From positions 62,001-126,000 of the forward strand of contig NZ_QAYX01000020.1 of NCBI RefSeq assembly GCF_003054705.1: a DNA stretch of 64,000 bases, in the 5' to 3' direction. The translations under genes and the position numbers were made by a program. Every line of letters starts with the position of its first letter. The stretch's first letter is position 1. Positions 8,598 through 34,399 of this stretch are shown here, one piece after another. Below the pieces are notes generated by a model. The model made no database searches. It saw only the letters and a list, made by a program, of their open reading frames with translations, and was not told the origin of the DNA. Origin of the DNA: Opitutus sp. ER46. Lineage in GTDB: Bacteria; Verrucomicrobiota; Verrucomicrobiia; Opitutales; Opitutaceae.

Positions 8598-8638
8598 CAG
8601 TTTTCGCGTCAGCGAAAACTGCGAAAACTGCGAAAACT
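8598..8638. repeat. GCGAAAACT tandem repeat and palindrome over the dehydrogenase stop
   Basis: GCGAAAACT is repeated three times at 8612-8638 and encodes the SFR-SFR-SFR tail of the acyl-CoA dehydrogenase. The first copy also forms a 10-bp perfect inverted repeat with 8598-8607 around GTCA, and this loop contains the stop codon. The repeat therefore sets where the protein ends. Confidence 0.7.
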
Positions 8639-9970: not shown

Positions 9971-10166
9971 GGGTGGGAACTCCCGGCGCGGAACGAGTGT
10001 GGGGTTGAGGGGAAACCCGCCCCGGGGCCGCGCACGTTGCCGCACTTGCCTCGACGCGCAACCGCCCGCGCCCGCCTCCTGCCGGGCTTTACGCCTAAAG
10101 GATGAAAGGCCGACCCGGCGCGGCGCCCCATTTGCCGGAACCGCAACTCTGGGTAGCGTCCCCGCC

Positions 10167-11399
10167 ATGGCTGTAGCCGTACCCCCGCGCCGCAACCGCC
10201 GTTCCCCCACCCCGCCCCGCATCCTGACCGCCGTGCCGCTTTGCGACGGACACGACAGCGCCGTCATGACCGTCAACCATGAGCTGGTCCGGCATGGCGC
10301 AGAAGTCGTGTACCTCGGCTACCACCAATCCGCGGCCGCCATCGCTCGCGCCGCCGTACAGGAGGACGTCGATGCCGTGGGCATCAGCAGTTACAACGGC
10401 GGCCACCTCGTCTTCTTCCGCGAAGTGCTCGCCGAACTCCGTGCCCGCAGCGGCGCCGACATCCCCGTTTTCGGCGGCGGGGGTGGCACGATCACCGCCG
10501 CCGACGCCCGCCTCCTGCAGCGCGCCGGCGTGGCCCGCATCTTCTTCGCCGGCACTCCCCTGGCGGCGATGGTCGACGAGCTGTTCCGCCACGCCTCCAC
10601 GCGCCGGCGTCTCGCCGCTGGCAACGGCGACCGCGCACTCGGCCGCGCCATTTCGCTCGCGGAGAACGAGTCGTCTGCCGCCGCTCGCGCCCACGCGACG
10701 AGCCGCCGCGTCGCACCTCGTTCGCCTTTCGTCCTCGGCGTCGCCGGGCCAGGCGGCGCCGGCAAATCCACGCTCATCGACGAGCTCACCGCGCGCTTTC
10801 TTCACGACCAACGCGCCGGACGTCTCGCCATCCTCGCCAACGATCCCTCCCAGCCCGGCTCCGGCGGCGCGCTCCTCGGCGACCGCGTCGCCGCCATTTA
10901 CGCGCAGAACGACCGCGTCTTCTTCCGCTCGCTCGGGACCCGCGGTGCCCAGGCCGGCCGCTCCGCCGCATTGCCGGGCGCGCTCCAGGTCCTGCGCGAG
11001 CGCGGCGGCTTCGATCTGATCATCGTCGAGTCCGTCGGCATCGGGCAGGAGAGCGATCCGTTTGGCACGCTGGGACGCGACGAGCGCGCGCTCGTCGACG
11101 CCGTGCTCTTCGTGCTGCCGCCGCACTACGGCGGGCGCATCCAGCTCGAAAAGACCGCCCTGCTCCATGGCGCCGATTTCGTCGCGCTCAACAAGTGCGA
11201 CGATCCGCGCTGCGGCACCGCGCGCGCCGAGCTCGCGGCCTCCCTCGTCCGCGACACGCCCCCGCCCGCGCTGCATCTCACCACCGCCGCGCGCCACGAC
11301 GACCCGGGCGTCGATCAGCTCTACGCCGCCATCGCCGCGCGCGCCGGGCTCTCCCCACCGGGCGGCGAGCGCCCGTGTCTGCTCTGCGTCGAGACTTGA
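10167..11399 (+). CDS. IcmF-type B12-binding domain fused to MeaB-like GTPase (mutase half split off)
   Basis: 410 residues. N-terminal cobalamin domain: CDGHDSAV contains the D-x-H of the base-off B12 motif, with an IcmF-like rather than mutase-like surround, followed by AVGISSYNGGH and IPVFGGGGGTI. From about residue 190 there is a MeaI/MeaB G-protein: P-loop GPGGAGKS, DPSQPGSGGALLGDR, ESVGIGQ and NKCDD. In known IcmF proteins these two domains are followed in the same chain by the mutase barrel. Here the chain stops, and the mutase is a separate gene 17 nt downstream. The G-protein would guard coenzyme B12 loading and rescue. ATG at 10167 begins just before the conserved region. First gene of the rightward operon. 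Confidence 0.88.
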   Translation: MAVAVPPRRNRRSPTPPRILTAVPLCDGHDSAVMTVNHELVRHGAEVVYLGYHQSAAAIARAAVQEDVDAVGISSYNGGHLVFFREVLAELRARSGADIPVFGGGGGTITAADARLLQRAGVARIFFAGTPLAAMVDELFRHASTRRRLAAGNGDRALGRAISLAENESSAAARAHATSRRVAPRSPFVLGVAGPGGAGKSTLIDELTARFLHDQRAGRLAILANDPSQPGSGGALLGDRVAAIYAQNDRVFFRSLGTRGAQAGRSAALPGALQVLRERGGFDLIIVESVGIGQESDPFGTLGRDERALVDAVLFVLPPHYGGRIQLEKTALLHGADFVALNKCDDPRCGTARAELAASLVRDTPPPALHLTTAARHDDPGVDQLYAAIAARAGLSPPGGERPCLLCVET

Positions 11400-11416
11400 G
11401 CCGCCTCCTGTTCCCC

Positions 11417-13180
11417 ATGCCCCTCCTCTCGCAAGTCGCCGATGCCGTCACCGCCTACAACCGGCACGTGGCCGCCGAGACCGATCGCGCCCGGCGTGAT
11501 CCCGTGTTCGCCGCCGAACTCGGCCAACGCTGGTCCACGCTGCGGGACAGCGTGCGCCCCACCCGCTCGCCCACCGGCACGCCGGTACCGAGGCTCGCGC
11601 TGCCGGACACCGACGAACCCGGCGCCGTTGCCCAGTACCTGCTCGGCGAGGGCGCGCCGGGCGAGTTCCCGTTCGCCAACGCCGCCTATCGCGAAATGTA
11701 CCTCGCGCCCGACGCCGCGGCCGGCGCGCCTCCGCCCGGGGAGGAGCCGATGCGGCTGTTCGCCGGCCTCGGCCTGGCGGAAGACACCAACACGCGTTTC
11801 CGCTTTCTCGCGCGGCACCAGCCAAGCCTGCGGCTCTCCACCGCGTTCGACGGCCCGACGTTGTACGGCCTCGACAGCGATCACCCCGGCGTGCTCGGCA
11901 AGGTTGGCGAAGGCGGCGTGGCGATCGACACGGTCGACGATATGGCGCGGCTCTTCGCCGGCTTCGACCTGACCGCGCCCAACGCTTCGGTCTCGATGAC
12001 GATCAACGGTCCCGGGCCCGCGATCCTCGCCATGTACGTCGCCGCGGCGCGCCGCCGCTTCGGCGAGGACTGCGTCGTGAAACTCCGCGGCACGATCCAG
12101 GCCGACATTCTCAAGGAAGTGCAGGCCCAGAACGAGGTGCTGTTTCCCGTCGAGGCCTCGCTGCGCTTCCTCGGCGATATGATCGCGTGGTGCACCACCG
12201 CGATGCCGCGGTTCTATCCGATCAGCATCAGCGGCTACCACATCGCCGAGGCGGGTGCCACGCCCGTGCAGCAGGCCGCGTTCACCCTGAGCAATGCGTT
12301 TGCCTACGTGGAGATGCTCCGCGCACGGGGCCTCGACGTGAATGCCTTCGGTCCGCGGTTGTCCTTCTTTCTGGATTGCGGACTCGACGTGGAATACGCG
12401 GTCCTCGGCCGCGTCTGCCGCCGGATCTGGGCCATTGGGATGCGTGACGCCATCGGCGCCGCCGAGCCCGCCCAGCGGCTCAAGCTGCACACGCAAACCA
12501 GCGGGCGCTCGCTCATCGCCGCCGAGTTCAAGAACAACCTCACCCGCACCGCCGTGGAGCTGTTCCTCGCGTACCTCAACGCCACCAACTCCTGCCACAG
12601 CAACAGCGCCGACGAGCCGTTCACCACGCCCACCGAGGAGTACGTGCGCCTCGCGTCCCACGCGCAGTCCATCCTGCTCGAGGAGAGCGGACTCTTCCGC
12701 CACACGATGAATCTCTTCGCGGGCGCGCCGGGATTGAAGGCGCTCGAACGAGCCGTCGAACAGGAAGTCCTGGCCGTCTTCCGCGAGATCGACGCGCTCG
12801 GCGGCGTGATCCCAGCGATGGAACAGCGTTACCAGCGCAGCCGCATCCAGGAGGCCGCGCACCACTACGAGCAGCAGGTCAACTCCGGCGCGCGCGCGAT
12901 CATCGGGCTCAACCGCTATGCCGGCGAACCATCGCTCCCGAACGTGCCGCTGGCCCGCACCTCGCCGCGGCGGCAGCGACTACAGGTCGACCGGCTGAGC
13001 GCATTCAAGCGCCGCCATGCCCGCCGCGCGCCCGACGCGCTGCAGCGACTCGAGAACGTCGCGCGCACGCCGCAGGGCAATGTCTTCGCCGAACTGCTCC
13101 GCACCGTGGAGGTCTGCTCCCTCGGCCAGATCACCGCCTGCCTGCAGTCCGTCCTCGGCCAATACCGCCCCGCCGTGTGA
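11417..13180 (+). CDS. IcmF-type acyl-CoA mutase, catalytic barrel subunit
   Basis: 587 residues. Recognisable IcmF barrel segments: FAGLGLAEDTNTRFRFL, LRLSTAFDGPTLYGLDSDHPGV, SVSMTINGPGPAIL, HTQTSGRSL, CHSNSADEPFTTPTEE and the C-terminal MEQRYQRSRIQE. No B12 domain is present, so it depends on the preceding gene product. With coenzyme B12 it should interconvert branched and linear acyl-CoAs; the 'STAFD' and 'TTPTEE' environments match IcmF (isobutyryl/butyryl or isovaleryl/pivalyl) more than methylmalonyl-CoA mutase. Substrate choice is inference. The start ATG at 11417 lies 17 nt after the previous stop. The last codons overlap the GTG of the carboxyltransferase. Confidence 0.88.
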   Translation: MPLLSQVADAVTAYNRHVAAETDRARRDPVFAAELGQRWSTLRDSVRPTRSPTGTPVPRLALPDTDEPGAVAQYLLGEGAPGEFPFANAAYREMYLAPDAAAGAPPPGEEPMRLFAGLGLAEDTNTRFRFLARHQPSLRLSTAFDGPTLYGLDSDHPGVLGKVGEGGVAIDTVDDMARLFAGFDLTAPNASVSMTINGPGPAILAMYVAAARRRFGEDCVVKLRGTIQADILKEVQAQNEVLFPVEASLRFLGDMIAWCTTAMPRFYPISISGYHIAEAGATPVQQAAFTLSNAFAYVEMLRARGLDVNAFGPRLSFFLDCGLDVEYAVLGRVCRRIWAIGMRDAIGAAEPAQRLKLHTQTSGRSLIAAEFKNNLTRTAVELFLAYLNATNSCHSNSADEPFTTPTEEYVRLASHAQSILLEESGLFRHTMNLFAGAPGLKALERAVEQEVLAVFREIDALGGVIPAMEQRYQRSRIQEAAHHYEQQVNSGARAIIGLNRYAGEPSLPNVPLARTSPRRQRLQVDRLSAFKRRHARRAPDALQRLENVARTPQGNVFAELLRTVEVCSLGQITACLQSVLGQYRPAV

Positions 13181-14934
13181 AACCGCCTCCCCTGTCCACC
13201 TCTGTCCCTAGTCCGGGTTCGCCCGCACCGGCCGCGCGAGCCGCGCGAGCAGCTTTGCCCGCCCCCGCCCGCGCGCCCTCGCCTACACCGACGGCATCGA
13301 CGTCGCGGAGGGATGCCGCGGCGTCCGGCGGCACGCCCGCCGCTTCTGCCGACTGGGACTCCCGCTGCCGCGAACTCGCCGCCGAGGAGGCCACGCTCCG
13401 CGAGGGTGGCGGCGCCTCGGGCCGCGAGCGCCAGCACAAGCTCGGCCGCCTCACCGCGCGCGAACGCATCGCCGCGCTCCTGGATTTTTCCGATGAGTTT
13501 TTGGAGCTCGGGCTCTGGGCCGCGCACGGGATGTACCGCGACTGGGGCACGTTCACCGCCGCCGGCGTGGTCACCGGCATTGGCCGCGTCTCCGACCGGC
13601 CCGTGATGCTCATTGCCAACGACGCCACCGTGAAAGCCGGCGCGTTCGTTCCCATGACCTGCAAGAAGATCATCCGCGCCCAGCGCGTGGCCTTCGAGTG
13701 CGCGCTGCCGCTGGTGTACCTCGTGGACTCGTCCGGCGTGTTCCTTCCGATGCAGGACGAGGTGTTTCCCGACGAGGACGACTTCGGCCGCATCTTTCGC
13801 AACAACGCCGTGCTCTCCGCCGCGGGGCTGCCGCAGTTCGCCGCCATCATGGGCAACTGCGTGGCCGGCGGCGCCTACCTCCCGGTCCTCTGCGACAAGA
13901 TCCTCATGACCGAAGGCAGCGGCCTGTACTTGGCCGGACCGTCGTTGGTCAAAGCCGCCATCGGTCAGGAAGTCGACAGCGAGGCGCTTGGTGGTGCGAC
14001 CATGCACGCCGAGGTGAGCGGGACCGTCGATTTCAAGGAACGCGACGATCCCGCCTGCCTCGCGCGGTTGAAATCGCTGGTCGGGCTCCTGCCGGCGTCG
14101 CCCGCCGCGCCGGAGTTCTCGTTGCGCAAACGGCCGACCGACAAGCCGGCCAACGCGGTGTACGACATCGTCAGCCTCGACGGCCGGCGCGAGTACGACG
14201 CGCGCGACCTGCTCGCGTGCATCGTCGATGCCGGCTCGATCGACGAGTACAAGGCCGACTACGGGAAGTCGCTCGTGTGCGCCTACGCGCGCATCGCAGG
14301 CCAGCCGGTCGGCATCGTCGCCAACCAGCGCAAGCGTGTGCAGTCGCCTAAATCGGGGCTGCAGATGCCAGGAGTGATTTACGCCGGCAGCGCCGAGAAG
14401 GCGGCGCGGTTCATCATGGACTGCAACCAGACGCGCGTGCCGCTCGTTTTCCTGCAGGACGTCTCGGGGTTCATGGTTGGCCGCGACGCCGAGGAGAGCG
14501 GAATCATCCGCGCCGGTGCTAAGCTGGTGAACGCGATGAGCAACTCGACGGTGCCGAAGCTTACCGTCGTCGTCGGCGGCAGCTATGGGGCCGGCAATTA
14601 TGCGCTCTGCGGGAAGGCGTTTGACCCGCGTTTCATCTTCGCCTGGCCGAGCGCGCGCTACGCGGTCATGGGCGCGGCCCAGGCCAGCGGCGTGGTGTAC
14701 AACATTCTCGCGCGCAGCGCCGGCGACCGCAGTCCCGATGAACTCGCCGCGCTCCGCGCCCAGGTGAAGAAGGACTACGTCGAGCAGGCCGACATCCGCT
14801 ACGGGGCCGCACGCGGCTGGGTCGACGCCATCATCGCCCCGCACACCACGCGCCAGGTGCTCGCCACCGCGCTCGCGTACGCGACCCGGCCCGCCGTGCG
14901 CGCCTCGTTTCACACCGGCGTCCTGCAGGTGTAG
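13177..14934 (+). CDS. Biotin-dependent acyl-CoA carboxylase, carboxyltransferase (beta) subunit
   Basis: 585 residues from a GTG that overlaps the mutase stop (GTGA). After about 60 Ala/Pro/Ser-rich residues come RERQHKLGRLTARERI, LVDSSGVFLPMQ, MGNCVAGGAYLPVLCDK, FLQDVSGFMVG, GGSYGAGNYALCGKAF and FAWPSARYAVMG, typical of methylcrotonyl-, geranyl- and propionyl-CoA carboxylase beta subunits. It transfers carboxyl from carboxybiotin to an acyl-CoA. No biotin carboxylase/biotin carrier subunit is in the window, so its partner must be encoded elsewhere. The neighbouring AtuA pair favours a methylcrotonyl- or geranyl-CoA-like substrate. The unusual N-terminal extension may mean the true start is further in. 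Confidence 0.9.
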   Translation: MKPPPLSTSVPSPGSPAPAARAARAALPAPARAPSPTPTASTSRRDAAASGGTPAASADWDSRCRELAAEEATLREGGGASGRERQHKLGRLTARERIAALLDFSDEFLELGLWAAHGMYRDWGTFTAAGVVTGIGRVSDRPVMLIANDATVKAGAFVPMTCKKIIRAQRVAFECALPLVYLVDSSGVFLPMQDEVFPDEDDFGRIFRNNAVLSAAGLPQFAAIMGNCVAGGAYLPVLCDKILMTEGSGLYLAGPSLVKAAIGQEVDSEALGGATMHAEVSGTVDFKERDDPACLARLKSLVGLLPASPAAPEFSLRKRPTDKPANAVYDIVSLDGRREYDARDLLACIVDAGSIDEYKADYGKSLVCAYARIAGQPVGIVANQRKRVQSPKSGLQMPGVIYAGSAEKAARFIMDCNQTRVPLVFLQDVSGFMVGRDAEESGIIRAGAKLVNAMSNSTVPKLTVVVGGSYGAGNYALCGKAFDPRFIFAWPSARYAVMGAAQASGVVYNILARSAGDRSPDELAALRAQVKKDYVEQADIRYGAARGWVDAIIAPHTTRQVLATALAYATRPAVRASFHTGVLQV

Positions 14935-14940
14935 CCCGCC

Positions 14941-16353
14941 ATGACCGCCCCGTTGCGCATCGCCAACGCCTCCGCCTTTTGGGGCGACCAACCCGAGGCT
15001 GCCGCCCGCCTGCTCGCGCGTGCGCCGGAGGTCGACGTGCTGACGCTCGACTACCTCGCCGAGGTTTCGCTCTCGATCATGGCGATCCAGCGCGCAAAAG
15101 ACCCGCAAGCCGGCTTCGCGCGTGACTTCCTCGATGTCCTGCGATCGTTGGCGCCGGCGTGGACTGCCGGAAGTCGCACGCGCGTGGTGACCAACGCCGG
15201 CGGCCTGGACCCGCTCGCCTGCGGCCGCGCGGCGCGCGCCGTCCTCGACGCAGCCGGGCTGCAGGGACTCCGCATCGCGGTGATCACGGGCGACGACGTG
15301 CTGCCCGCGTTGCGCGCGGAACCTGCCGCGTTCGCGAATCTCGAGACCGGTGCTTCGCTCGTGGGCGTCGCCGCGCGGCTCGTCACGGCCAACGCGTACA
15401 TCGGCGCCGCGCCGATCGCGGACGCGTTGCGCGCCGGAGCCGACATCGTCATTGCCGGCCGGGTGGCCGATCCGTCGCTGACCGTCGGGCCGTGCCTCGC
15501 GCACTTTGGTTGGCGGGCCGAACAGTACGACGAGATCGCCGGCGCGACGCTCGCCGGACACCTCATCGAATGCGGCACGCAGGCGTGCGGCGGGTTCTCC
15601 ACCGACTGGTTACAGCTGGCTGACGTGACCGACATCGGGTTCCCGATCGCCGAGGTGGTCGAGGACGGAAGCTGCGTAATCACGAAGCCCGCGGGCACCG
15701 GCGGGGCCGTCACGCGCGACACCGTGCGCGAGCAATTGCTTTACGAGATCGGCGATCCCGGCGCGTACCTCTCGCCCGATGCGCAGGTATCGCTGCTCGG
15801 CGTCACCGTGCAGGAAGTCGGGGCCGACCGGGTACGCGTTGCGGGCGCACGGGGCCGGCCACCGCCGGAGACGCTGAAGGTGTCCGCTACCTACCGCGAC
15901 GGCTTCAAGGCCCACGGCCAGCTCACGGTTTTCGGGCACGACGCCGTGACCAAAGCGCGCGCCGCGGGCGAGGCACTTCTGCGGCGGCTCGCCGCGCGCG
16001 GCTGCCTGTTTCGTGAAACGGTCATCGAGTGCCTGGGCGCCGGCGCGTGCATGCCGGGAATCGTGGCGCCGGAGACCGAGGTCCGGATGGTCGAGACGGT
16101 GCTGCGGGTGAGCGTCGCGGCTGACGAGCACGAGCCCGTCGAGCGGTTCGCACGCGAGATCGCTCCGCTGGTGACATGTGGTCCTCAAGGCACCACCGGC
16201 TACGCCAACGCCCGACCGCGCGCGCTGCCGATCTTCGGTTACTGGCCGTGCCTCATCGACCGGGAAGCAGTCCGGCCGGAAATCCACTGGTTCGACCCTC
16301 GGTCCCGGGGTGTCTCGGAGGCGTCACCGTTTCGCCATGCCGCACCTGCGTGA
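14941..16353 (+). CDS. AtuA-family protein, N-terminal main domain
   Basis: 470 residues, 6 nt after the carboxyltransferase. Conserved AtuA (DUF1446) segments are visible: IANASAFWGDQPEAA, LTLDYLAEVSLSIM, VVTNAGGLDPLACG, IVIAGRVADPSLTVGP, GHLIECGTQACGG and ITKPAGTGGAVTRDTV. AtuA proteins accompany geranyl-CoA carboxylase in acyclic terpene utilisation and related carboxyltransferases in other bacteria; the biochemical role is not settled. Longer AtuA proteins carry a C-terminal extra domain, which here is a separate, overlapping gene. Cytoplasmic, with no signal peptide. Family assignment strong, function unknown. Confidence 0.87.
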   Translation: MTAPLRIANASAFWGDQPEAAARLLARAPEVDVLTLDYLAEVSLSIMAIQRAKDPQAGFARDFLDVLRSLAPAWTAGSRTRVVTNAGGLDPLACGRAARAVLDAAGLQGLRIAVITGDDVLPALRAEPAAFANLETGASLVGVAARLVTANAYIGAAPIADALRAGADIVIAGRVADPSLTVGPCLAHFGWRAEQYDEIAGATLAGHLIECGTQACGGFSTDWLQLADVTDIGFPIAEVVEDGSCVITKPAGTGGAVTRDTVREQLLYEIGDPGAYLSPDAQVSLLGVTVQEVGADRVRVAGARGRPPPETLKVSATYRDGFKAHGQLTVFGHDAVTKARAAGEALLRRLAARGCLFRETVIECLGAGACMPGIVAPETEVRMVETVLRVSVAADEHEPVERFAREIAPLVTCGPQGTTGYANARPRALPIFGYWPCLIDREAVRPEIHWFDPRSRGVSEASPFRHAAPA

Positions 16354-16669
16354 CATCGCGTTTGCCCGCAGCGGCGACAAAGGTGACTCCGCCAACGTGG
16401 CGGTGTTCGCGCGCTCGCCGGCCGCGTACGCCTGGCTGCGCCAGCATCTGACGGCCGACGTCGTGGCGCGCCATTTTCGCGCGCTCGGCGTCGGTGAGGT
16501 CACGCGTTACGAGCTACCGAACCTGGAGGCGCTCAACTTCGTACTGCCGCACGTGCTCGGCGGCGGCGGCTCGCGCTCCCTCCGCATCGACGCGCAGGGC
16601 AAGACCCTCGGGATGGCGCTGCTGGAGATGGCGATCGAGCCGGCCGCGGTCCCGCCGCGGCTGGAGTGA
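16337..16669 (+). CDS. AtuA C-terminal-domain protein (split AtuA)
   Basis: 110 residues, overlapping the end of the AtuA gene by 17 nt in another frame. The start LRDIAFARSGDKGDSANVAVFAR is the signature of the AtuA-like C-terminal domain, followed by RYELPNLEALNFVLPHVLGGGGSRSLRID. In single-chain homologues it is joined to the preceding protein, so the two products probably form one complex. The overlap suggests coupled translation. A strong hairpin follows at 16745-16804, probably ending this transcript before the hydratase gene. Confidence 0.85.
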   Translation: MPHLRDIAFARSGDKGDSANVAVFARSPAAYAWLRQHLTADVVARHFRALGVGEVTRYELPNLEALNFVLPHVLGGGGSRSLRIDAQGKTLGMALLEMAIEPAAVPPRLE

Positions 16670-16891: not shown

Positions 16892-17668
16892 ATGAGCGAT
16901 TCCTCCGCCCCTGTCCTGGTTGCCACCGCCGGTCCGGTCACGACCGTGACCCTAAACCGCCCCGAGAAGCGCAACGCGCTCAACGTGCCGCTGCTCGACC
17001 ACCTCATCGCCGCGGTCGGGCATGCCGAGGCAGACCCAACGCAGCGCATCCTGGTGCTCCGCGGCGCGGGCACCGTGTTCTGTTCGGGCCTCGACCTCGA
17101 GGAGATGTCCCGCGGCGAGAACGCCGCCAAATCGGCCGACTTGGTGGAAGGCGCGCTGCGGCGGCTGTCCGGCACACGGCTCATGACGATCGCCGCCGTG
17201 CAGGGCGCGGCCGTCGCCGGCGGTGCGGGCCTGATGAGCGCAACCGATTTTGCGATCGCCACCCGCGACGCCAAGTTCGGCTACCCCGAGGTGCGCCGCG
17301 GCCTGGTGCCGGCGATTATCATGACTTTCCTTCGCCGCCAGCTGCGCGAACGCGACGCGCGTGAGCTCCTCCTGCTCGGCAAGCTCTTCACCGCCGAGCA
17401 CGCCCACGACATCGGCCTCCTGAACCGGATTGTCGCCGACGCCGCCGCCCTCGACGCGGAGGTGCAGTCGATCATCAGCTCGCTCCTGCAAGGCGCCCCG
17501 CAGGCGTTGAGCGAGACCAAGCGCGAGTTGGCGGAACTCTGGCCCTCGACTTACGAAGCGGACTTCGCCCGCGCCCACTCGATCCACGTCGCCGCCCGCA
17601 CTTCCGCCGAAGCCCAGGAAGGCATCGCCGCCTTCCACGCGAAACGCCGCCCCAACTGGGCGCCGTGA
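16892..17668 (+). CDS. Enoyl-CoA hydratase/isomerase (crotonase) family protein
   Basis: 258 residues. Crotonase features: TLNRPEKRNALN, VLRGAGTVFCSGLDLEEM (oxyanion-hole segment), AVQGAAVAGGAGLMSATDFAIA (second oxyanion segment, GGAG), then FGYPEVRRGLVPAIIMTFL with the expected Glu, and SETKREL. It would hydrate an enoyl-CoA, possibly a methylglutaconyl-type substrate given the neighbouring carboxyltransferase and AtuA genes, but crotonase substrates cannot be read from these motifs. It sits 222 bp after the AtuA genes with a probable terminator between, so it may have its own promoter. Convergent with the 2-oxoacid dehydrogenase gene. Confidence 0.88.
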   Translation: MSDSSAPVLVATAGPVTTVTLNRPEKRNALNVPLLDHLIAAVGHAEADPTQRILVLRGAGTVFCSGLDLEEMSRGENAAKSADLVEGALRRLSGTRLMTIAAVQGAAVAGGAGLMSATDFAIATRDAKFGYPEVRRGLVPAIIMTFLRRQLRERDARELLLLGKLFTAEHAHDIGLLNRIVADAAALDAEVQSIISSLLQGAPQALSETKRELAELWPSTYEADFARAHSIHVAARTSAEAQEGIAAFHAKRRPNWAP

Positions 17669-17960: not shown

Positions 17961-20900
17961 CTATGCCTCAGTCTCGCCTGGCAACGTGAACGTGGCGATC
18001 CCGTCCTTGAGGGTCCGTAGGAAGGCCGCGGCACCGGCCCCATTGACCACGCGATGATCGAAGGTCAGCGAGAGCGTTACGACCTCGCTCGGATACACGA
18101 CGCCTTCGTCGTTCACCATGCGCTCGTGCGCCTTGCCGATGAAGAGCGTGCTCATCGCCGGCGGCACCACAATCGGCGTGGCAACCTCCACCCCGAACGC
18201 GCCGAGGCTCGTGATGTTCAACGGCGCCTGCACGTCCTCCACGTGGCCGGCGCGCACGTCGGCGATCGCCTGCGTGTACGTGGCAACAAAGGCATCCCAG
18301 CCGAGCTTCGCCGCCCCGTGCACCACGGCCGTCGCGAGCCGGTCGCCCTCGAGCGCCACCGCGATCCCGAGGTCGAACGTCTCGTGCTCCACGATCGTGC
18401 CGTCCTTCTGCACCAGCCGCCGGAAGGGCGCATGGCGCTGCATCGCGCGAACGACACACCAGGCGAGCAACAAGGAGGGCGAGTAATCCCGGCCCGCCGC
18501 CTTGCCGGCCTCACGCGCCGCCCGGATCGGCGGCCACGGCGCATCGAGTTGCATGTTGGCGGTGATGAGCCCCGTCAGCCGCCGCGTGATCGCCGGGGAC
18601 AGCGCCGGCGCCATGATCTGCCCCGCCGCGGGTGGCGGCGCCTCGAAGCGTGGCACCCGCGCCGTCTCCTGCAGTTTTTGCAGACTCGGTGCCTCCGCCG
18701 GCAACACCGGCGCAACCGCCACAGGCGACGGTTCACTTCCCCGGGGCGACTCCGCCGCGGACGCCGCCGCCGACTCGGCCTCGGTCGTCTCCAGCGCACC
18801 GGGCACACTGAGCCGCGCAATCTCCCGGCCGATCTCGACCAGGTCGCCCAGCTGGCAGCGCCACTCCTTGAGGACGCCCACCACCGCGGACTCGATCGGG
18901 TACACCGCCTTGTCGGTCTCCACCTCGCACAGTGCCTCATCGAGCCCAATGGGCTCACCAGGCTTCTTAAGCAGTGACACGATTCGCGCGGCGCGAATTC
19001 CCTCGCCCATCACCGGCACCACCAGCGGCACGTCCCGGCCACGCACCACCTTGACGCGGGCGCTTGGGCCGGGACCGCTCGGCGTCAGCTGCAGCGGCGC
19101 CTCCTGCTGGAGCGCGACGGGCCGCGGCGCGGCCCGGTCGGTCATCACGCGCCGCACCGCCTGCACGATGCGTTTCGCGTCGGGGAGCGCCGTGTATTCA
19201 TAGATCGGATTGTAGCCGATCATCACGTTGCCCTTGGAAACCAGCAGCGGCGGGCTCACGAGCCGGCTCCACACGTCGGCCCGGCTCGTCAGGTGCGAAA
19301 TGATCATCTGTCCCACGCTGCAGTTCTCCGTGTCCTCCTGCACCACGATCAACCGGCCGGTGCGCCGCACCGACTCCTCGATCATCTCGCGGTCCCACGG
19401 CACGATCGAACGCAGGTCGATCAGCTCCACGCTCACTGCCTCGCCCAGCTCGGCGAGGGCCTCCTGCGCCTTCTCGACCGTGTTGCCCCAGGCGACAATC
19501 GTGACGTCGCTGCCCTCGACCACGCGTTTCGCATGACCGATTGGAACCGCCGTAATCGTGCGCGCCACGTCGCGCTCCACCCAGAGCATGTGCTTCGGGA
19601 TCAGCACGAGCGTCGGATCCTCGCCGTGCATCGCGCTCCAGAGCAGGCCCGCGGCGTCCTCCGGCGTGCTTGGGATCACCACGTTCAGCCCCGGGTAATG
19701 CGCGATCACCGCCTCGTTGGCCTGCGAGTGCCACAGCGACCCGCCGGGGAGATACGCTCCGTACGGCGCGTAGATCACGGCGGGACACGTCCAGCGCCCG
19801 AACGTCCGCCAGCGCAGCGTGGCCAAATTCGTCACGAGTTGGTTCCACCCCGGATAGATGAAGTCGATGAACTGGAGCTCGAACACCGGCCGGCGCCCGT
19901 AGCTCGCGAGTCCGCAGGCGACGCCCAGGATGGTCGACTCGGCCAGCGGCGAGTTGAATACCTGCTCTGGAAAGTCCGTCGAGAGCCGCTTCGTCAGGGT
20001 GAACACGCCACCCTTCGGATCCTGCACATCCTCGCCGAAGATCATCCGCCGCGGATCAGCGTCGAGGCCGGCGCGCAGCGTGAGGTTGATGGTGTCGCCC
20101 ATGCGGTAGCGGCCGGGTTTGAAGATCTCCTCGTCGAGGTCAGGCATCGGCCGCACCACGTTGGCCTCGAGCTCGGAGGGCAGCGGGTTCTCCGCATCCT
20201 CCGCAGCGGCGTAGTCGGCGCGCACCTGCTCCTTTACCTCGTTCTCGAGCCGCGCGTACTCGGACACACTGAGGAGGTCCTCGGCGATCATCTGCTCCTT
20301 CAGCACGCGCAACGGGTCGCGTTCCTCGAGCGTGGCCAGTTCCTCCGCCGAGCGGTAGATCTTCTGGTCGTCGGAGCTGGTGTGACTCGAGAGCCGCTCC
20401 ATCCGCACCCACAGGAACACCGGGCCCTCGCCCGTACGGATCCGCGCCATGAGTTCCCCCACGACCTGGTACACGTGCTCGACATCCCAGCCGTCGACGA
20501 CGACCCATTCGTCGGGCGCGAGCACGTTCAGCGCGAGCGGGTTGGTGCGGCGCGTGGGACTCGAAATGCCATAGCCATTATCCTCGACGACGAGCAGCAG
20601 CGGGAGCCGCCGCTCCTTCGCGAACGCCACCGTCTCATAGAAGTCGCCCTGCCGCGCCGCGGCATCGCCAACCGTCGCGACGGTGAGGCTCGACTTGCCG
20701 TCGAGCTGCATGCCCCACGCCATGCCGCACGCCGGCAGGAGCTGCGAAGCGGTGGGCGTGGGCACGCTCCAGATATGCAGGTCGGGGAAGCTGTAGTGCG
20801 ACGGCATCTGCCGGCCGTGCGAGGACGACTCGCGCTTGGCCATATAGTCGAGCGCGAGTTGTCGCGTGGACACTCCTCGGCCCAGCACCAGCGCGCGGTC

Positions 20901-21104
20901 GCGATAGTACGGGCACGCGTAATCGTCGGGTTCCATCAGCAGCCCGACGGCGGCCATCGCTTCGTGGCCGCGACCCGACACATGGAAATGCCCCTTGCCC
21001 TGCCGGTTGAGACTCTCCTCGCGGAGATCGCCGTGCCGGCTCTCCAGAATCGTGAGCAGCAGACGACGCTTCAATTCCGTCGATAGCGTGGCGACAGTGG
21101 TCAT
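17961..21104 (-). CDS. Single-chain branched-chain 2-oxoacid dehydrogenase, E1alpha-E1beta-E2 fusion
   Basis: 1047 residues. E1alpha about 1-325 (HVSGRGHEAM, CPYYRDRALVL, TPP site GDAAARQGD...NGYGIS). E1beta about 335-650 (FGEDVQDPKGGVF, FNSPLAES, FIDFIYPG). Lipoyl domain about 688-768 with ETDK lysine near 732. Ala/Pro linker, then E2 acyltransferase about 830-1047 (SPAITRRLTG, LNITSLG, FDHRVVNG with His 1017). It converts branched-chain 2-oxoacids to acyl-CoAs. No E3/E1-binding (PSBD) domain is visible in the linker. The usual Asp of 'DHRxxDG' is Asn. E1alpha/E1beta and E2 are normally two or three genes. Start ATG at 21104, with weak SD. The 285 bp upstream hold no recognisable gene. E3 is not in the window. 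Confidence 0.93.
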   Translation of the reverse strand: MTTVATLSTELKRRLLLTILESRHGDLREESLNRQGKGHFHVSGRGHEAMAAVGLLMEPDDYACPYYRDRALVLGRGVSTRQLALDYMAKRESSSHGRQMPSHYSFPDLHIWSVPTPTASQLLPACGMAWGMQLDGKSSLTVATVGDAAARQGDFYETVAFAKERRLPLLLVVEDNGYGISSPTRRTNPLALNVLAPDEWVVVDGWDVEHVYQVVGELMARIRTGEGPVFLWVRMERLSSHTSSDDQKIYRSAEELATLEERDPLRVLKEQMIAEDLLSVSEYARLENEVKEQVRADYAAAEDAENPLPSELEANVVRPMPDLDEEIFKPGRYRMGDTINLTLRAGLDADPRRMIFGEDVQDPKGGVFTLTKRLSTDFPEQVFNSPLAESTILGVACGLASYGRRPVFELQFIDFIYPGWNQLVTNLATLRWRTFGRWTCPAVIYAPYGAYLPGGSLWHSQANEAVIAHYPGLNVVIPSTPEDAAGLLWSAMHGEDPTLVLIPKHMLWVERDVARTITAVPIGHAKRVVEGSDVTIVAWGNTVEKAQEALAELGEAVSVELIDLRSIVPWDREMIEESVRRTGRLIVVQEDTENCSVGQMIISHLTSRADVWSRLVSPPLLVSKGNVMIGYNPIYEYTALPDAKRIVQAVRRVMTDRAAPRPVALQQEAPLQLTPSGPGPSARVKVVRGRDVPLVVPVMGEGIRAARIVSLLKKPGEPIGLDEALCEVETDKAVYPIESAVVGVLKEWRCQLGDLVEIGREIARLSVPGALETTEAESAAASAAESPRGSEPSPVAVAPVLPAEAPSLQKLQETARVPRFEAPPPAAGQIMAPALSPAITRRLTGLITANMQLDAPWPPIRAAREAGKAAGRDYSPSLLLAWCVVRAMQRHAPFRRLVQKDGTIVEHETFDLGIAVALEGDRLATAVVHGAAKLGWDAFVATYTQAIADVRAGHVEDVQAPLNITSLGAFGVEVATPIVVPPAMSTLFIGKAHERMVNDEGVVYPSEVVTLSLTFDHRVVNGAGAAAFLRTLKDGIATFTLPGETEA

Positions 21105-21389: not shown

Positions 21390-23426
21390 TCAGCATTCAG
21401 CCATTTCTTCCTCCGCCCAGTGCAGCAGACCGCCGCGGAACGCGGGGAAGCCGGCGCCGGCAAGGAGCGCAAAATCCACGTCGTCGGCCGAGAGCACGAC
21501 GCGTTCGGCGAGGCAACGCCGCGCCTCCTCGACCATGACCTTCATGAGGGCTTGCACGATCGCATCCTCCTGCGGTTGCAGCGGGGGCAGGGGCTTGGCC
21601 GAGTCGGCAGTCGTCCGCCCGAGCGCGGCGGCTTTGGGGTTCACGGCCTCACGGCGCCCATCGTAGCGATAGAACCCCTCGCCGCTGCCATTCTTCCGTC
21701 CCTTGAGCCCCGCCGCGAGGAGCCGGTCGCACGCCGTGGTCGCGGTGAAGCGGCGTGGGAAGTAGTGCGCGAGTTCGCCAAAGATGAATGCGGTGACGTC
21801 GATGCCCACCTCGTCGATCAGCCGCAGCGGTCCCATTGGCCAGCCGAAGTTGCGCAGCGCCCGATCGATCGCGCCGGCGTCGACGCCCTGCTCCCACACC
21901 CGCACGGCCGCGTTGAGATAGAAGAAGAGCACGCGCGTCATCAAGAACCCCGGCGAGGAGCGGCAGATCACGGGCGCCTTGCCGAGCAGGCGCACGAACT
22001 CCAGCGCGCGCGCCGCCGACTCGGGGGACGTGCGCGTGCCCATGACCAGCTCGACGAGCGCCATCCGGCTCACGGGGTTGAAAAAGTGAATTCCGAGCAG
22101 GCGGTGCCGCCCCGCGACGGACGCCGCGAGTTCGTCGATCGGCAGCGCAGAGGTGTTCGAGGCCAGGAGCGTGTCGGGCCGCACGATGGCGGCCAGTTCC
22201 GCAAACAGCCGCTGCTTGGCTTCGACGCTTTCGACGATCGCCTCGATCACGAGGTCGCAGTCGGCAAGGCCCTCCCAGGTCGTGGTGGTGCGAATACGCC
22301 CGTAGACGATGCGGCCATCCTGCGGCGTGGCCTGCCCGCGCTTCACGCCGTCGTCGATCAACCCGCGGATCACGCCCAGCGCGCGCTCGACAAACTCGAG
22401 CTGCACATCGCGCAGCACGACGTCGAAGCCGCGGGTGGCGAGCCAGTGCGCGATGCCGGCGCCCATCACCCCGGCGCCGACCACGCCGACGCGGCGGACC
22501 GGCGGCCCGACCTCGGCGCAGGGCTGGTCGGTGAACCAGCCGTCGAGCGTGCGCTTGCGGGCGGCCTCCCGCAGGAGGAACGCGTGGATCATGTTGCGAC
22601 AGTCGGCTTGCGCCGTCGCCTCGCCGAAGCGCTCGGCCTCGATCGCGAATGCCCCGGGCAGCGACAGCCCGGCGGTATGCTGGACCACGTCGACCGCGTG
22701 CAGCACCGCATAGGGTCGGCCGCCGCAGCGCACGGCCAGCTCGCGACGCGTGTCGGCCCAAAGCGTCGGCTCGGGCGGCGGCGGCGTGGGACGCTTCGGC
22801 AGCCCATCGGCGGCCAGGCGCAGGGCGGTGAGCTGCGCGTGGCGCCGGAGGTCGGCCGCGGGCACGCATTCGTCGATGAGGCCCGCCGCCAGCGCCTCGC
22901 GCGCCGGCAGCAACTGACCGCGGAGGATGTGCGCGAGGGCGGCTTTCGCGCCAATCAGCCGGGGCAGCCGGACGCTGCCGCCCCAGCCGGGGATCGTCCC
23001 GATGCTTGTCTCCGGAAAACCGATCCGCGTCTCAGGGGCGTCGCTCGCGATGCGCCAGCCGCACGCCAGCGCCACCTCCAGTCCGCCGCCCGGACACGCG
23101 CCGTGGATCGCCGCGACCACCGGCACGCGGCTCCGGGCCAGCCGTTCCAGCAACTGCTGCCCGTGGCGGGAGAACGCAGCCGCGGTGGCGGCATCAGGCA
23201 GGTTCTGCAACACGCGCAGGTCGGCGCCAGCGAGGAACACCCGCTCCTTCGCACTCACCAACACCAGGGCGACCGCGGCGCTGGCCTCGGCGGCATCGAG
23301 CACGGCGGCGAACGCCTGCAGGAGCGCGGCGTTGCAGACGTTGGCCCGGGCGCCGGGGGCGTCGAAGACGATCCACCCCACTCCATCGCGGTCCACGGTG
23401 AAACGGACTGGCAGGGCGGCGGCCAT
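21390..23426 (-). CDS. FadB/FadJ-like enoyl-CoA hydratase / 3-hydroxyacyl-CoA dehydrogenase
   Basis: 678 residues. The N-terminal crotonase part (AGADLRVL, IHGACPGGGLEVALAC, GFPETSIGTIPGWGG) carries the two expected acidic residues. The central NAD domain begins VGVVGAGVMGAGIAHWLATRGF, followed by SNTSALPI and HFFNPVSRMALVELV with the catalytic His. Two C-terminal helical domains follow (GFLMTRVLFFYLNAA, GWPMGPLRLIDEVGID). It hydrates enoyl-CoA and oxidises the 3-hydroxyacyl-CoA. It starts 11 nt after the thiolase stop, so the two are one operon, the usual partnership for beta-oxidation. Slightly shorter than E. coli FadB. Confidence 0.92.
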   Translation of the reverse strand: MAAALPVRFTVDRDGVGWIVFDAPGARANVCNAALLQAFAAVLDAAEASAAVALVLVSAKERVFLAGADLRVLQNLPDAATAAAFSRHGQQLLERLARSRVPVVAAIHGACPGGGLEVALACGWRIASDAPETRIGFPETSIGTIPGWGGSVRLPRLIGAKAALAHILRGQLLPAREALAAGLIDECVPAADLRRHAQLTALRLAADGLPKRPTPPPPEPTLWADTRRELAVRCGGRPYAVLHAVDVVQHTAGLSLPGAFAIEAERFGEATAQADCRNMIHAFLLREAARKRTLDGWFTDQPCAEVGPPVRRVGVVGAGVMGAGIAHWLATRGFDVVLRDVQLEFVERALGVIRGLIDDGVKRGQATPQDGRIVYGRIRTTTTWEGLADCDLVIEAIVESVEAKQRLFAELAAIVRPDTLLASNTSALPIDELAASVAGRHRLLGIHFFNPVSRMALVELVMGTRTSPESAARALEFVRLLGKAPVICRSSPGFLMTRVLFFYLNAAVRVWEQGVDAGAIDRALRNFGWPMGPLRLIDEVGIDVTAFIFGELAHYFPRRFTATTACDRLLAAGLKGRKNGSGEGFYRYDGRREAVNPKAAALGRTTADSAKPLPPLQPQEDAIVQALMKVMVEEARRCLAERVVLSADDVDFALLAGAGFPAFRGGLLHWAEEEMAEC

Positions 23427-23437
23427 GGCAGAAGGGC

Positions 23438-24622
23438 TCACGCTTCTGAAACCCGTTCCACGCAGATCGCAAGCGCTTCGCCGCCACCGATGCAGATCAC
23501 GGCGAGGCCGCGGCGCCCGCCGCGCTCGCGCAGCGCCGCGAGAAGCGTGACGAGGATACGCGCCCCGCTGGCGCCGATTGGATGGCCCAACGCAATCGCG
23601 CCGCCGCGCACGTTGAGCCGGTCGGCCGGCACGCCCGTCTCGCGCTGGAAGACCAGCGGCACGACGGCGAAAGCCTCGTTGACCTCCCAGAGGTCGACAT
23701 CCCGGGTGGTCCAACCCGCTCGGCGCAGCGCGTTGCCCGCCGCGGAGATCGGGGCAGTCGTGAACCACACCGGGTCCTGCGCGTGCGCGCCAAACGCGAC
23801 GATGCGCGCCAGCGGCCTCACGCCGAGCGCGGTGGCCGTCTCCTCCCGCGCCAGCACCAGGGCCGCGGCGCCATCGTTCAGCGTCGAAGCATTGGCGGCC
23901 GTGATGGTGCCGCCCGGCTCGAACACCGGCTTGAGCGTGCGCAGGCGCTCGTAGTTCACGCGTCCCGGCCCCTCGTCCTGTTCCACGCGCCGCTCCGCAC
24001 GTCCGTCCGACACCACGACCGGGGTGATCTCACCCGCGAACCGACCCGCCTGTTGGGCAGCATTGGCGCGCCGGAAACTCTCGGCGGCGTAGGCGTCCTG
24101 TTCCTCGCGACTGATCGCAAATCGGCGCACGCACTCTTCAGCGCAGCCGCCCATATGCAAGTCGGCATAGGGATCCCACAAGCCGTCGTGCACCATCGAA
24201 TCGAGCACCCGCTGGTGGCCGAGCCGGAACCCCTCGCGAGCCTTGGGCAGGAGGTACGGCGCGGCGCTCATGTTCTCCATGCCGCCAGCAACGACGAGCG
24301 AGGCGTCGCCCGCGGCGAGGGCGTGGACTCCCTGCATCACGGCTTGCAGCCCCGATCCGCAGACCTTGTGCACCGTCACGCAGCGGGTGGACGCGGGCAG
24401 GTTGGCCTGCAAGGCGGCCTGCCGGGCGGGAGCCTGCCCGAGCCCGGCCTGCAGGACATTGCCCATCAGCACGTCGCTCACGTGCGCGGGAGCAAGGCCG
24501 GTCGCCGCGAGCGCGCCCTGGATGGCGACCGCGCCGAGGCGGGGCGCCGGCACCGCGGCGAGCCGGCCCTGAAAGGAGCCGATCGGGGTGCGGGTGGCAG
24601 CGAGGATCACGGCGTGGCTCAT
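23438..24622 (-). CDS. Acetyl-CoA C-acyltransferase (thiolase)
   Basis: 394 residues, the normal thiolase length. Active-site segments: VHKVCGSGLQAVM with the acyl-accepting Cys, GGMENMSAAPYLL, VNEAFAVVPL, GGAIALGHPIGASGARI with the His, and CIGGGEALAICVE with the second Cys. It cleaves 3-ketoacyl-CoA to acetyl-CoA and a shortened acyl-CoA, or runs in reverse for acetoacetyl-CoA. First gene of the leftward pair with the FadB-like enzyme. Divergent from the LuxR-type regulator across 241 bp. The ATG at 24622 gives the canonical N-terminus (AVILAATRTPIGSF). Confidence 0.94.
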   Translation of the reverse strand: MSHAVILAATRTPIGSFQGRLAAVPAPRLGAVAIQGALAATGLAPAHVSDVLMGNVLQAGLGQAPARQAALQANLPASTRCVTVHKVCGSGLQAVMQGVHALAAGDASLVVAGGMENMSAAPYLLPKAREGFRLGHQRVLDSMVHDGLWDPYADLHMGGCAEECVRRFAISREEQDAYAAESFRRANAAQQAGRFAGEITPVVVSDGRAERRVEQDEGPGRVNYERLRTLKPVFEPGGTITAANASTLNDGAAALVLAREETATALGVRPLARIVAFGAHAQDPVWFTTAPISAAGNALRRAGWTTRDVDLWEVNEAFAVVPLVFQRETGVPADRLNVRGGAIALGHPIGASGARILVTLLAALRERGGRRGLAVICIGGGEALAICVERVSEA

Positions 24623-24783
24623 GGCGTCAGCACGGCGGAGCCACGCGCCGCCCGGCGGGGAACGATTCCGGCCTGCGTGGGAGAGGCATGTGGGAGGGGT
24701 GGGCGCGCAACAAAGCAGGGTTCGGCCAGCCCGCAAGTGACCGGCGGATTTGCTGCGCCCGCCACGCGCGGGCGGCGCGCCCC

Positions 24784-24806
24784 CCGTCCGGCAATACGCC
24801 AGACGG
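24784..24806. promoter_or_regulatory. Inverted repeat between thiolase and LuxR-type genes (candidate operator)
   Basis: CCGTCCGGC (24784-24792) and GCCAGACGG (24798-24806) form a dyad with 8 of 9 matching pairs around AATAC. It lies in the divergent intergenic region, about 57 bp before the regulator's GTG. Dyads of this size suit a dimeric LuxR-type DNA-binding domain. Not tested. Confidence 0.4.
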
Positions 24807-24863
24807 AGTAAACGACGCCGCGCCGATGTTGCGCCGGCCCGGAAAATCCCCTCGACTCGCGCC

Positions 24864-26018
24864 GTGCGTCCCTCCGGTTCTCCCTCGCTCCTCATCTCCC
24901 CTGAAGTCGCGCCTCCCGCCCTGTCGGGGGACTTGCTGCGGGTGCACGCCACGCTCACGCAACGTGATCTCTGGCACGCCCTGCGCCTGCTCGGTCGGGC
25001 CGCGATGCCGAGCACCTCGGTCACGCTCGAGCTCGATCTGACCGGCGAGGGCGCAGCGCTTCGCACCTACCGGCAGGGCCATCCCGCGGCCGCCCGCGAT
25101 GCCCGGGCACTGGCGCACCCCGCCCAAGAGTGGCTGACCCGCCATGTGGGCGCGCCGGTGTTTCGGCTATCGGATTGCGTCACGCTGCGCGATTTGCGCA
25201 ATTCCGCTTACTACGAACGCGTTATGCGACGTGCAGGCTGGGACAAGCAGCTGTCGATCGTGGCGTGGCGGGGCCGGCAGGTGCTCGGAATGTGGAATTT
25301 TCACCGCAGCCCCTCGGAGTCGGACTTCTCGCAGCGTGACCAGCGGCTGGCCGAGTCGCTGCAGCCGCATTTTGCCGCCGCGCTGCGGCGGGTGCTGGAC
25401 CATGAGGAGGCGGTCTATCGCGGCGAACAGGTTTCCCGGCTGCTGGAAGACGCACCCGTGGGCTTGCTGCTGGTGGACTGGGACCTGCGTCCACTCTGGT
25501 ACAACCGCGAGGGAGCCCACGCCTGTGCTGTCTGGAATCACGGCGAACGTCGCGCTTCCGCCCTCAGCCCGAAGCGCACTTTCCGGCTGCCACCCGCGCT
25601 GGCCGAAGCGTGCAGTGAAATGCGCACGCAGTGGCTCAACGCGCCCAACTCGGCCCGCGAGTCGGCGTTGAAGCCTCGCGTGCTCAGTGACGACAACCTC
25701 GGGCTGCACGCGAACATCGTGCTCCGGCCCGTGCTGACGAACCCGCTGCTCCGGCCGGCGTTCGAGGTTCAGCTCGATTACCGGCGGCCCCGCGGCGACC
25801 GCAACCGACCGCTTTCGCCGGGCGCCGTGGCGCTCCTCGCCCGGTTGAGCGCGCGCGAACGCGAAGTGGCGATGCGCGTCCGCGAGGGCATGGGCACGCG
25901 CGAGATCGCCGGCGAACTGCATCGCAGCCCGCTGACGATCAAGACCCAGCTCGCCGCGATTTTCCGCAAGCTCGAGGTGGGGAGCCGCACCCGCGTGGCG
26001 GCATTGCTCAACCGTTAG
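24864..26018 (+). CDS. LuxR-family transcriptional regulator
   Basis: 384 residues from GTG at 24864. The C-terminus LSAREREVAMRVREGMGTREIAGELHRS...TQLAAIFRKLEV is a GerE/LuxR-type helix-turn-helix. The N-terminal 300 residues lack an obvious receiver or autoinducer domain; they include a PAS/GAF-like stretch (EDAPVGLLLVDWDLRPLWYN). It is probably a one-component regulator. It is divergent from the thiolase-FadB operon and is the natural candidate to control it or the whole island. The upstream extension of the open frame is Arg/Pro-rich and unlike protein; the GTG was chosen because it starts the plausible sequence. Confidence 0.82.
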   Translation: MRPSGSPSLLISPEVAPPALSGDLLRVHATLTQRDLWHALRLLGRAAMPSTSVTLELDLTGEGAALRTYRQGHPAAARDARALAHPAQEWLTRHVGAPVFRLSDCVTLRDLRNSAYYERVMRRAGWDKQLSIVAWRGRQVLGMWNFHRSPSESDFSQRDQRLAESLQPHFAAALRRVLDHEEAVYRGEQVSRLLEDAPVGLLLVDWDLRPLWYNREGAHACAVWNHGERRASALSPKRTFRLPPALAEACSEMRTQWLNAPNSARESALKPRVLSDDNLGLHANIVLRPVLTNPLLRPAFEVQLDYRRPRGDRNRPLSPGAVALLARLSAREREVAMRVREGMGTREIAGELHRSPLTIKTQLAAIFRKLEVGSRTRVAALLNR

Positions 26019-34209: not shown

Positions 34210-34399
34210 GGTTGGTAAATGCCCGAGAGCAGTGACAGCCACAAGGTGAAAACCGGCTGCGTCGCAACCGCTCCGCCCCGCAAAACGCCGCGGCTTGCCG
34301 GGGTGCAGCGGCGATGAGCGCCCTGCCCCGCCGGCCAGATTTACCTCGGGCTTACACGCCACCCGCCCGCGCTATTTGCCGGCGGCTTGCAGCTGCGCA

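Follow-up and report, generated by a model that had tools for sequence, protein, structure and literature searches.

A conserved E1alpha-E1beta-lipoyl-E2 fusion of Verrucomicrobiota, probably a branched-chain 2-oxoacid dehydrogenase in one chain, with no recognised subunit-binding domain

Textbooks illustrate substrate channelling with the 2-oxoacid dehydrogenase complexes, giant multienzyme cores in which subunit-binding domains hold the parts together. We asked how such an enzyme could work when both E1 subunits, the lipoyl domain and E2 are joined in one chain in which no subunit-binding domain (PSBD) is recognised. The question is raised by a gene at positions 17961-21104, minus strand, of a 64,000-nucleotide stretch of the Opitutus sp. 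ER46 genome (contig NZ_QAYX01000020.1, positions 62,001 to 126,000 of the forward strand), the whole of which is called the window below. An original prediction had placed the gene correctly, leaving its strand unstated, and had read it as a branched-chain 2-oxoacid dehydrogenase (BCKDH) fused from E1alpha, E1beta and E2. Our analysis partly supports that interpretation. We consider it probable that the fusion is a single-chain BCKDH which makes acyl-coenzyme A (acyl-CoA), works without a PSBD and is served by dihydrolipoamide dehydrogenase (E3) in trans.

The gene is one open frame of 1047 residues from ATG to stop (stop codon at 17961-17963), and all of its parts are given here in minus-strand order. 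Pfam and alignment placed E1alpha (E1_dh) at residues 26-307 (20184-21029), with a BCKDH-like loop, SSHTSSDD, that contains His241. E1beta follows as Transket_pyr at residues 335-506 (19587-20102), with Glu389 and His459, and Transketolase_C at residues 523-620 (19245-19538). The lipoyl domain (Biotin_lipoyl) occupies residues 695-765 (18810-19022) and has its lipoylation site, Lys732, at 18909-18911. After an Ala/Pro-rich linker (residues 770-824, 18633-18797) the chain ends in the E2 acyltransferase domain (residues 829-1047, 17964-18620, assigned from Pfam, codons, fold and alignment), with His1017 at 18054-18056 and Asn1021 at 18042-18044; the Pfam 2-oxoacid_dh match itself covers residues 868-1038 and starts at profile position 53 of 232. 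Lys732, in the motif ETDK, and His1017 and Asn1021, in HRVVN, were checked at the codon level. The uninterrupted 1047-residue chain that had been predicted was thus confirmed by open reading frame, Pfam and codons.

All five catalytic or carrier Pfam domains were detected in each of the 46 fusion members scanned, which were drawn from 77 usable sequences of the window and related loci. Among them are the three domains of an alpha/beta-type E1, E1_dh, Transket_pyr and Transketolase_C. His241, Glu389 and His459, which align as the catalytic alpha-His, beta-Glu and beta-His of E1, are invariant in an alignment of ten fusions; among the 46 members the first two are invariant and His459 is present in 90% or more. 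Lys732 is invariant in both sets (10/10 and 46/46), as are His1017 and Asn1021 in the 46 members. In five pairs, dN/dS ranged from 0.02 to 0.26 for E1, for the lipoyl domain and for E2, and from 0.15 to 0.42 for the linker, with domain borders taken in window numbering and therefore approximate for the three pairs that lack the window sequence.

The E1alpha-E1beta-lipoyl-E2 fusion is real and conserved. Third-position GC was 0.81-0.93 over ten slices of the gene and 0.57 in the short last slice, and this evenness gives no sign of a frame switch. The same one-frame architecture was found in 10 of 57 genomes, namely the source genome (5.7 Mb in 25 contigs) and 56 relatives, and all ten frames were read; one further genome (G019), in which the match is limited to 66 residues (73% identity) within an 84-residue frame, was not counted. 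In the GTDB species collection 410 relatives were detected; the best 80 of them all belong to Verrucomicrobiota, and the remaining 330 may hold other phyla. Of these 80 loci, 79 have an open frame of 984 residues or more with the E1 motif, and 78 also had the E2 motif DH(R/K)xxNG. L110 has no such single frame, that of L109 is without the E2 motif, and L124, which is one of the 78, starts at a contig end. Matches to the fusion at E ≤ 1e-150 were obtained in 21 of 288 genomes of the phylum, all within the class of the window or nearer. Frames were read in all 21 genomes; the source genome, G056 and G046 are among the ten already mentioned, and the other 18 each had the E1 motif, the lipoyl motif and DH(R/K)xxNG. 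Three of these 21 one-frame fusions lie on single-contig genomes (G070, G169 and G320). No relatives were found on viral contigs. A 337-residue lipoyl-E2 protein beside E1 genes in G049 was considered as a split-gene form and rejected, as its motif reads DHRVADG and it was judged by sequence to be another E2 type. As far as we searched, the fusion is widespread in Verrucomicrobiota and apparently uncharacterised: no description was found by title or abstract start among open-licence PMC papers, which include few subscription journals. The original prediction had allowed that the fusion might prove to be already common and characterised; it is common in Verrucomicrobiota, and a characterisation was not found in that search.

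The absence of a recognisable PSBD, also predicted, is supported. Pfam listed no E3_binding match in the window protein up to E = 10, where HMMER's own filters discard the majority of hits weaker than roughly 0.1, and none at E ≤ 10 in the 46 members. The E2 proteins of the pyruvate dehydrogenase (PDH) and 2-oxoglutarate dehydrogenase (OGDH) of the source genome, used as positive controls, readily gave E3_binding at 2.1e-15 and 2.3e-13, so the search works. The stretch between the lipoyl and catalytic domains, where a canonical E2 carries its PSBD, was 42-92 residues long (median 58, n = 77, rough borders). In a full-length AlphaFold model (mean pLDDT 77.8, pTM 0.63) residues 770-824 were below 50, with block means of 32-38 for residues 771-820 and a predicted helix of seven residues at 808-814. 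A separate model of residues 690-1047 had a mean pLDDT of 85.8, with residues 771-802 below 50.

E3 genes were likewise looked for around the fusion. No E3 homologue was detected near it in any of the 80 loci by tblastn with both E3 proteins of the source genome (1e-5; 1.25 Mb, median 15.8 kb). The same queries recovered lpdA in both ordinary control operons (L148 and L151), and lpdA follows E2 in four of four annotated ordinary operons chosen from plasmid matches. The source genome has two E3 genes that score over the family cut-off, on contigs C17 and C20, one beside OGDH E1 and E2 genes and one alone, neither of them near the fusion. We infer that E3 is supplied in trans.

The E2 domain combines the 2-oxoacid_dh fold with the His of DHxxx(D/N)G, as an acyltransferase of this family should, and its model matched E2 catalytic domains and cores in Foldseek (TM-score by target mostly 0.70-0.82). 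The nearest solved E2 by sequence varied with the query, being Corynebacterium AceF when residues 830-1047 were used and E. coli E2p when the family profile was. The original prediction had singled out the Asn of DHRVVNG as an oddity, a point that did not hold up. To judge from the sequences compared, Asn1021 is clade-wide yet not strange. According to published work (PMC10415282, PMC8421416 and PMC5986005), E2p of Azotobacter vinelandii has the catalytic His plus Asn614 at that site, as PDB titles also indicate, OdhA, the actinobacterial two-in-one OGDH, has a His316/Gln320 pair in its E2 (PMC10415282), and the Asp379Ala variant of E. coli E2o, altered at the same position by our own count, keeps 9.5% of complex activity. 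In view of the Azotobacter Asn, the OdhA Gln and the E2o variant, we reject the idea that Asn marks an E2 active site as dead or as new.

Five of six canonical E2s have three hydrophobic residues in a row close to the C-terminus; among the fusions 3 of 83 do (3 of 84 if one duplicate genome is kept), as scored by a regular expression in a fixed interval after this active-site motif. A plain hydrophobic count over tail positions 17-22 separated the two groups less well, giving two in 71 fusions, three in 12 and four in one (n = 84), and two to four in the canonical E2s (n = 6). According to the same papers, a changed C-terminus, with a Phe that is conserved in structure, deprives OdhA and AceF of high-order assembly; F1039, invariant in 46 of 46 members, is a candidate for the equivalent of that residue. 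Because 80 of 83 fusions do not have the hydrophobic run found at the canonical E2 end, E2 trimers and a small particle, rather than a 24- or 60-mer core, would be expected by analogy. The original prediction had pointed out that core assembly would have to fit an E1 on every E2 chain. The changed C-terminus favours trimers as the answer, and trimers would remove this packing problem.

The substrate was approached through the E1 loop and the neighbouring genes. In alignment, two alphaproteobacterial BCKDHs and a BCKDH-like E1 of Rhodococcus have a loop similar to the H(S/T)xxDD loop of the fusion's E1, whereas the source genome's PDH does not. Upstream of the fusion and on the same, minus strand lie a FadB/FadJ-like enoyl-CoA hydratase/3-hydroxyacyl-CoA dehydrogenase (21390-23768, models matched below cut-offs) and an acetyl-CoA C-acyltransferase, or thiolase (23438-25066, minus strand, TIGR01930 over cut-off). 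On the plus strand are an enoyl-CoA hydratase family protein (16892-17668), an acyl-CoA carboxylase carboxyltransferase-like protein (13177-14934, mmdA subfamily model below cut-off) and an IcmF-like isobutyryl-CoA mutase spread over two overlapping genes (9957-13180), with the B12 domain and GTPase at 9957-11399 and the mutase at 11195-13180, both halves matching the fused IcmF model below cut-off. An acyl-CoA dehydrogenase-like protein is encoded at 8609-10276 on the minus strand (models matched below cut-offs), and most equivalog models for the window neighbours were in fact matched below their cut-offs. Two genes at 14941-16669, within this acyl-CoA cluster, look AtuA-like, with no NCBIfam match at 1e-20.

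The neighbourhood was also surveyed over 81 loci (the 80 plus the window, many of them short). A FadB/J-like gene was present in 29 and directly upstream of the fusion in 24, and an enoyl-CoA hydratase gene in 15. Thirteen loci have a carboxyltransferase, identified as PF01039 in the one representative examined (the copy of the window falls outside that cluster). A putative 3-hydroxy-3-methylglutaryl-CoA lyase gene, named by eye, occurred in 10, the 136-residue fragment scanned giving no Pfam match, and the IcmF-like halves were separate genes in four loci, the window included. These neighbours suggest branched-chain acyl-CoA degradation. Together, the acyl-CoA catabolic neighbours and the BCKDH-type loop favour branched-chain 2-oxoacids as substrates, in keeping with the context that had been predicted. 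Two further 2-oxoacid_dh proteins are encoded in the source genome, one beside a PDH-type E1 pair and the other beside an OGDH E1, so that in this genome no BCKDH E2 candidate other than the fusion is evident.

From what was read directly, that is the architecture, its conservation, the lack of a recognised PSBD and of a nearby E3 gene and the acyl-CoA context, we infer a substrate, CoA as acceptor, E3 in trans and an oligomer that would fit together as follows. Using thiamine diphosphate, the fused E1alpha-E1beta would decarboxylate the 2-oxoacids derived from valine, isoleucine and leucine and would reductively acylate the lipoyl group on Lys732, either of the same chain or of a neighbouring one. 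Flexible linkers would let the lipoyl domain swing across to the E2 domain at the C-terminus, and the E2 domain would transfer the acyl group to CoA. Free E3, common to the cell's other complexes, would re-oxidise the lipoyl group without a PSBD; E3 serves the H-protein of glycine cleavage in a similar undocked way. With E1 in pairs and E2 in trimers, about six chains may make up a closed particle like that of OdhA, and not a 24- or 60-mer core.

Several observations weigh against this mechanism. Genes of branched-chain type are near the fusion in only part of the 81 loci (29, 15 and 13, as given above), and the commonest neighbour, in 34 of 81, is a threonine-synthase-like pyridoxal-phosphate enzyme (PALP, one representative), which is not a gene of branched-chain amino acid degradation. 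In NCBIfam the fusion scores best with models named for PDH, and all scores are below curated cut-offs; the substrate is therefore assigned from the neighbours and a single loop. A low pLDDT does not by itself prove disorder, as residues 359-386 and 452-469 of E1beta (the latter with His459), which are conserved, are also below 50. The PSBD model has no more than 36 positions, and Pfam could miss a degenerate copy, just as it misses the PSBD-like stretch of the Streptomyces polyketide synthases (PKSs) described below. The argument for trimers rests on analogy.

The alternative that survives best, although we consider it improbable, is a canonical complex in disguise, with an E2 cube or dodecahedron and a highly diverged linker segment that docks E3. 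The short helix at 808-814 could belong to such a segment, the E2 fold is otherwise ordinary, and the plain tail counts of the fusions overlap those of canonical E2s. By regular expression, an SLQxLQ-type motif was found in the linker of 16 of 77 members and a DQF-like motif in 24 (strict) or 33 (loose). However, both motifs are limited to lineages and neither was present in 28 (loose) to 37 (strict) of the 77 members, so a universal docking motif was rejected; E3_binding was detected in none of 46; and the three-residue run of five in six canonical E2s, against 3 of 83 fusions, argues against the core.

Relatives of the fusion were placed in two unrooted trees, in both of which long branches were flagged and the canonical rows were few. 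In the E1 tree (26 rows; nine Verrucomicrobiota E1 loci, L019-L027, left out) the fusions, four Streptomyces proteins and L018 stood apart from the canonical rows (100/100), and the fusions grouped with the Streptomyces proteins at 88/88; in the E2 tree (21 rows) these two grouped at 100/99. In the other members of the E1 clade, E1 is followed by 3-ketoacyl-ACP synthase III (KAS III; ACP, acyl carrier protein) or by the loading part of a PKS from Streptomyces. Among the 25 of 745 records listed in a plasmid search, the Streptomyces loci (L144:11941-17574, L145, L146 and L147) encode PKS/nonribosomal peptide synthetase (NRPS) proteins with an N-terminal lipoyl-E2-ACP-ketosynthase arrangement, and a separate E1alpha-beta gene before them; Pfam was run on L144 and L147. 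The arrangement is apparently a 2-oxoacid-driven loading part, and its lipoyl-to-E2 segment aligns with PSBDs, where Pfam makes no call at E ≤ 0.001. We guess that these clusters make streptogramin-like compounds.

A second type of relative, L018:1405-4788 (G055), from a bacterium of the same taxonomic order, has E1alpha-beta, lipoyl and KAS III domains on one chain (Pfam), and matched 25 of 240 genomes of the phylum at E ≤ 1e-120, 23 of them over nearly the full query length and two (G166 and G108) in part. This KAS III fusion suggests that a 2-oxoacid-derived acyl group is passed straight to fatty acid synthesis without CoA. The same fusion was also observed in L153-L158. None of the 25 genomes is among the 21 with the E2 version. 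About 1.8 joint genomes would be expected by chance and the probability of none is 0.14, assuming unrelated draws, so the non-overlap of the CoA and KAS III versions is only a hint. We tentatively suggest, at somewhat less than even confidence, that the window protein is one branch of an E1alpha-beta-lipoyl acyl-delivery family without a PSBD-organised core, whose acceptors would be E2 and CoA in catabolism, KAS III and malonyl-ACP in fatty acid priming from 2-oxoacids, and E2 and ACP in PKS loading.

The E2 domain of the fusion might hand its acyl group to ACP instead of CoA and prime branched fatty acid synthesis, as the sister E2 domain in the Streptomyces PKSs directly precedes an ACP and the E1alpha-beta-lipoyl relatives end in KAS III. 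We find this unlikely, since the neighbours in the window act on acyl-CoAs and none of the 45 largest neighbour clusters was ACP- or KAS-like (judged by eye from the start of one representative each). Less likely still, a separate lipoyl-PSBD protein would bring E3 to the fusion. A protein of 159 residues with lipoyl and E3_binding domains was indeed observed on contig C23 of the source genome (G000:C23:686050-686526), but a KAS III gene follows it within about 50 bases (L041:6051-7560) and the fusion is not near, so that the simpler reading assigns this protein to a KAS III system. A separate fused E1alpha-beta on contig C19 (L043:5151-7247) could, as a guess, be the E1 of this lipoyl-PSBD/KAS III pair. 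Finally, a sequencing error joining separate genes, named in the original prediction as a possible refutation, is for practical purposes excluded: one locus of 80 (L110) has no single frame, but independent genomes carry the same one-frame architecture (10/10, 78/80 and 21/21).

As a single-chain BCKDH with E3 in trans, the fusion has its closest characterised relative in plan in OdhA/KGD, whose chain is likewise not known to carry a PSBD. Like the fusion, OdhA has E1 and E2 on one chain, an E2 His paired with an amide, and E3 in trans, according to PMC10415282. It differs in that E2 precedes a large OGDH-type E1 and the lipoyl group comes in trans from E2p, whereas Pfam gives the fusion an alpha/beta E1, the order E1-lipoyl-E2 and a lipoyl domain in cis. 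The original prediction had taken separate E1 and E2 genes as the norm and had missed this precedent for an E1/E2 fusion. With the BCKDH complex (BkdA1-BkdA2-BkdB-Lpd) the fusion shares the catalytic domains in operon gene order, the BCKDH-like E1 loop and the catabolic context. In contrast to the separate E1alpha, E1beta and E2 chains of that complex, three genes are joined in one frame, with no recognised PSBD and no adjacent E3 gene, and its E1 and E2 clades stand apart from the canonical rows used. The Streptomyces PKS/NRPS clusters (L144-L147) are the closest by identity among the plasmid matches listed and share DHTV(L/F)NG, but have E1 as a separate gene, a visible PSBD-like stretch and an ACP after E2. 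The E1alpha-beta-lipoyl-KAS III fusions (L018 and L153-L158) share the E1 clade (100/100) and the lipoyl domain, and end in KAS III, not E2.

If this reading is true, the giant-core plan would have been escaped a second time, beside OdhA, by a widespread enzyme that keeps its lipoyl arm in cis on one chain and does without a PSBD. It would make the need for a large core and a docked E3 in efficient turnover testable, and, with E1, lipoyl domain and E2 in one protein, it would be a compact structural target.

Elsewhere in the window, positions 28087-34362 hold an open frame of 2091 residues, which ends in what we take to be a PEP-CTERM-like tail motif.

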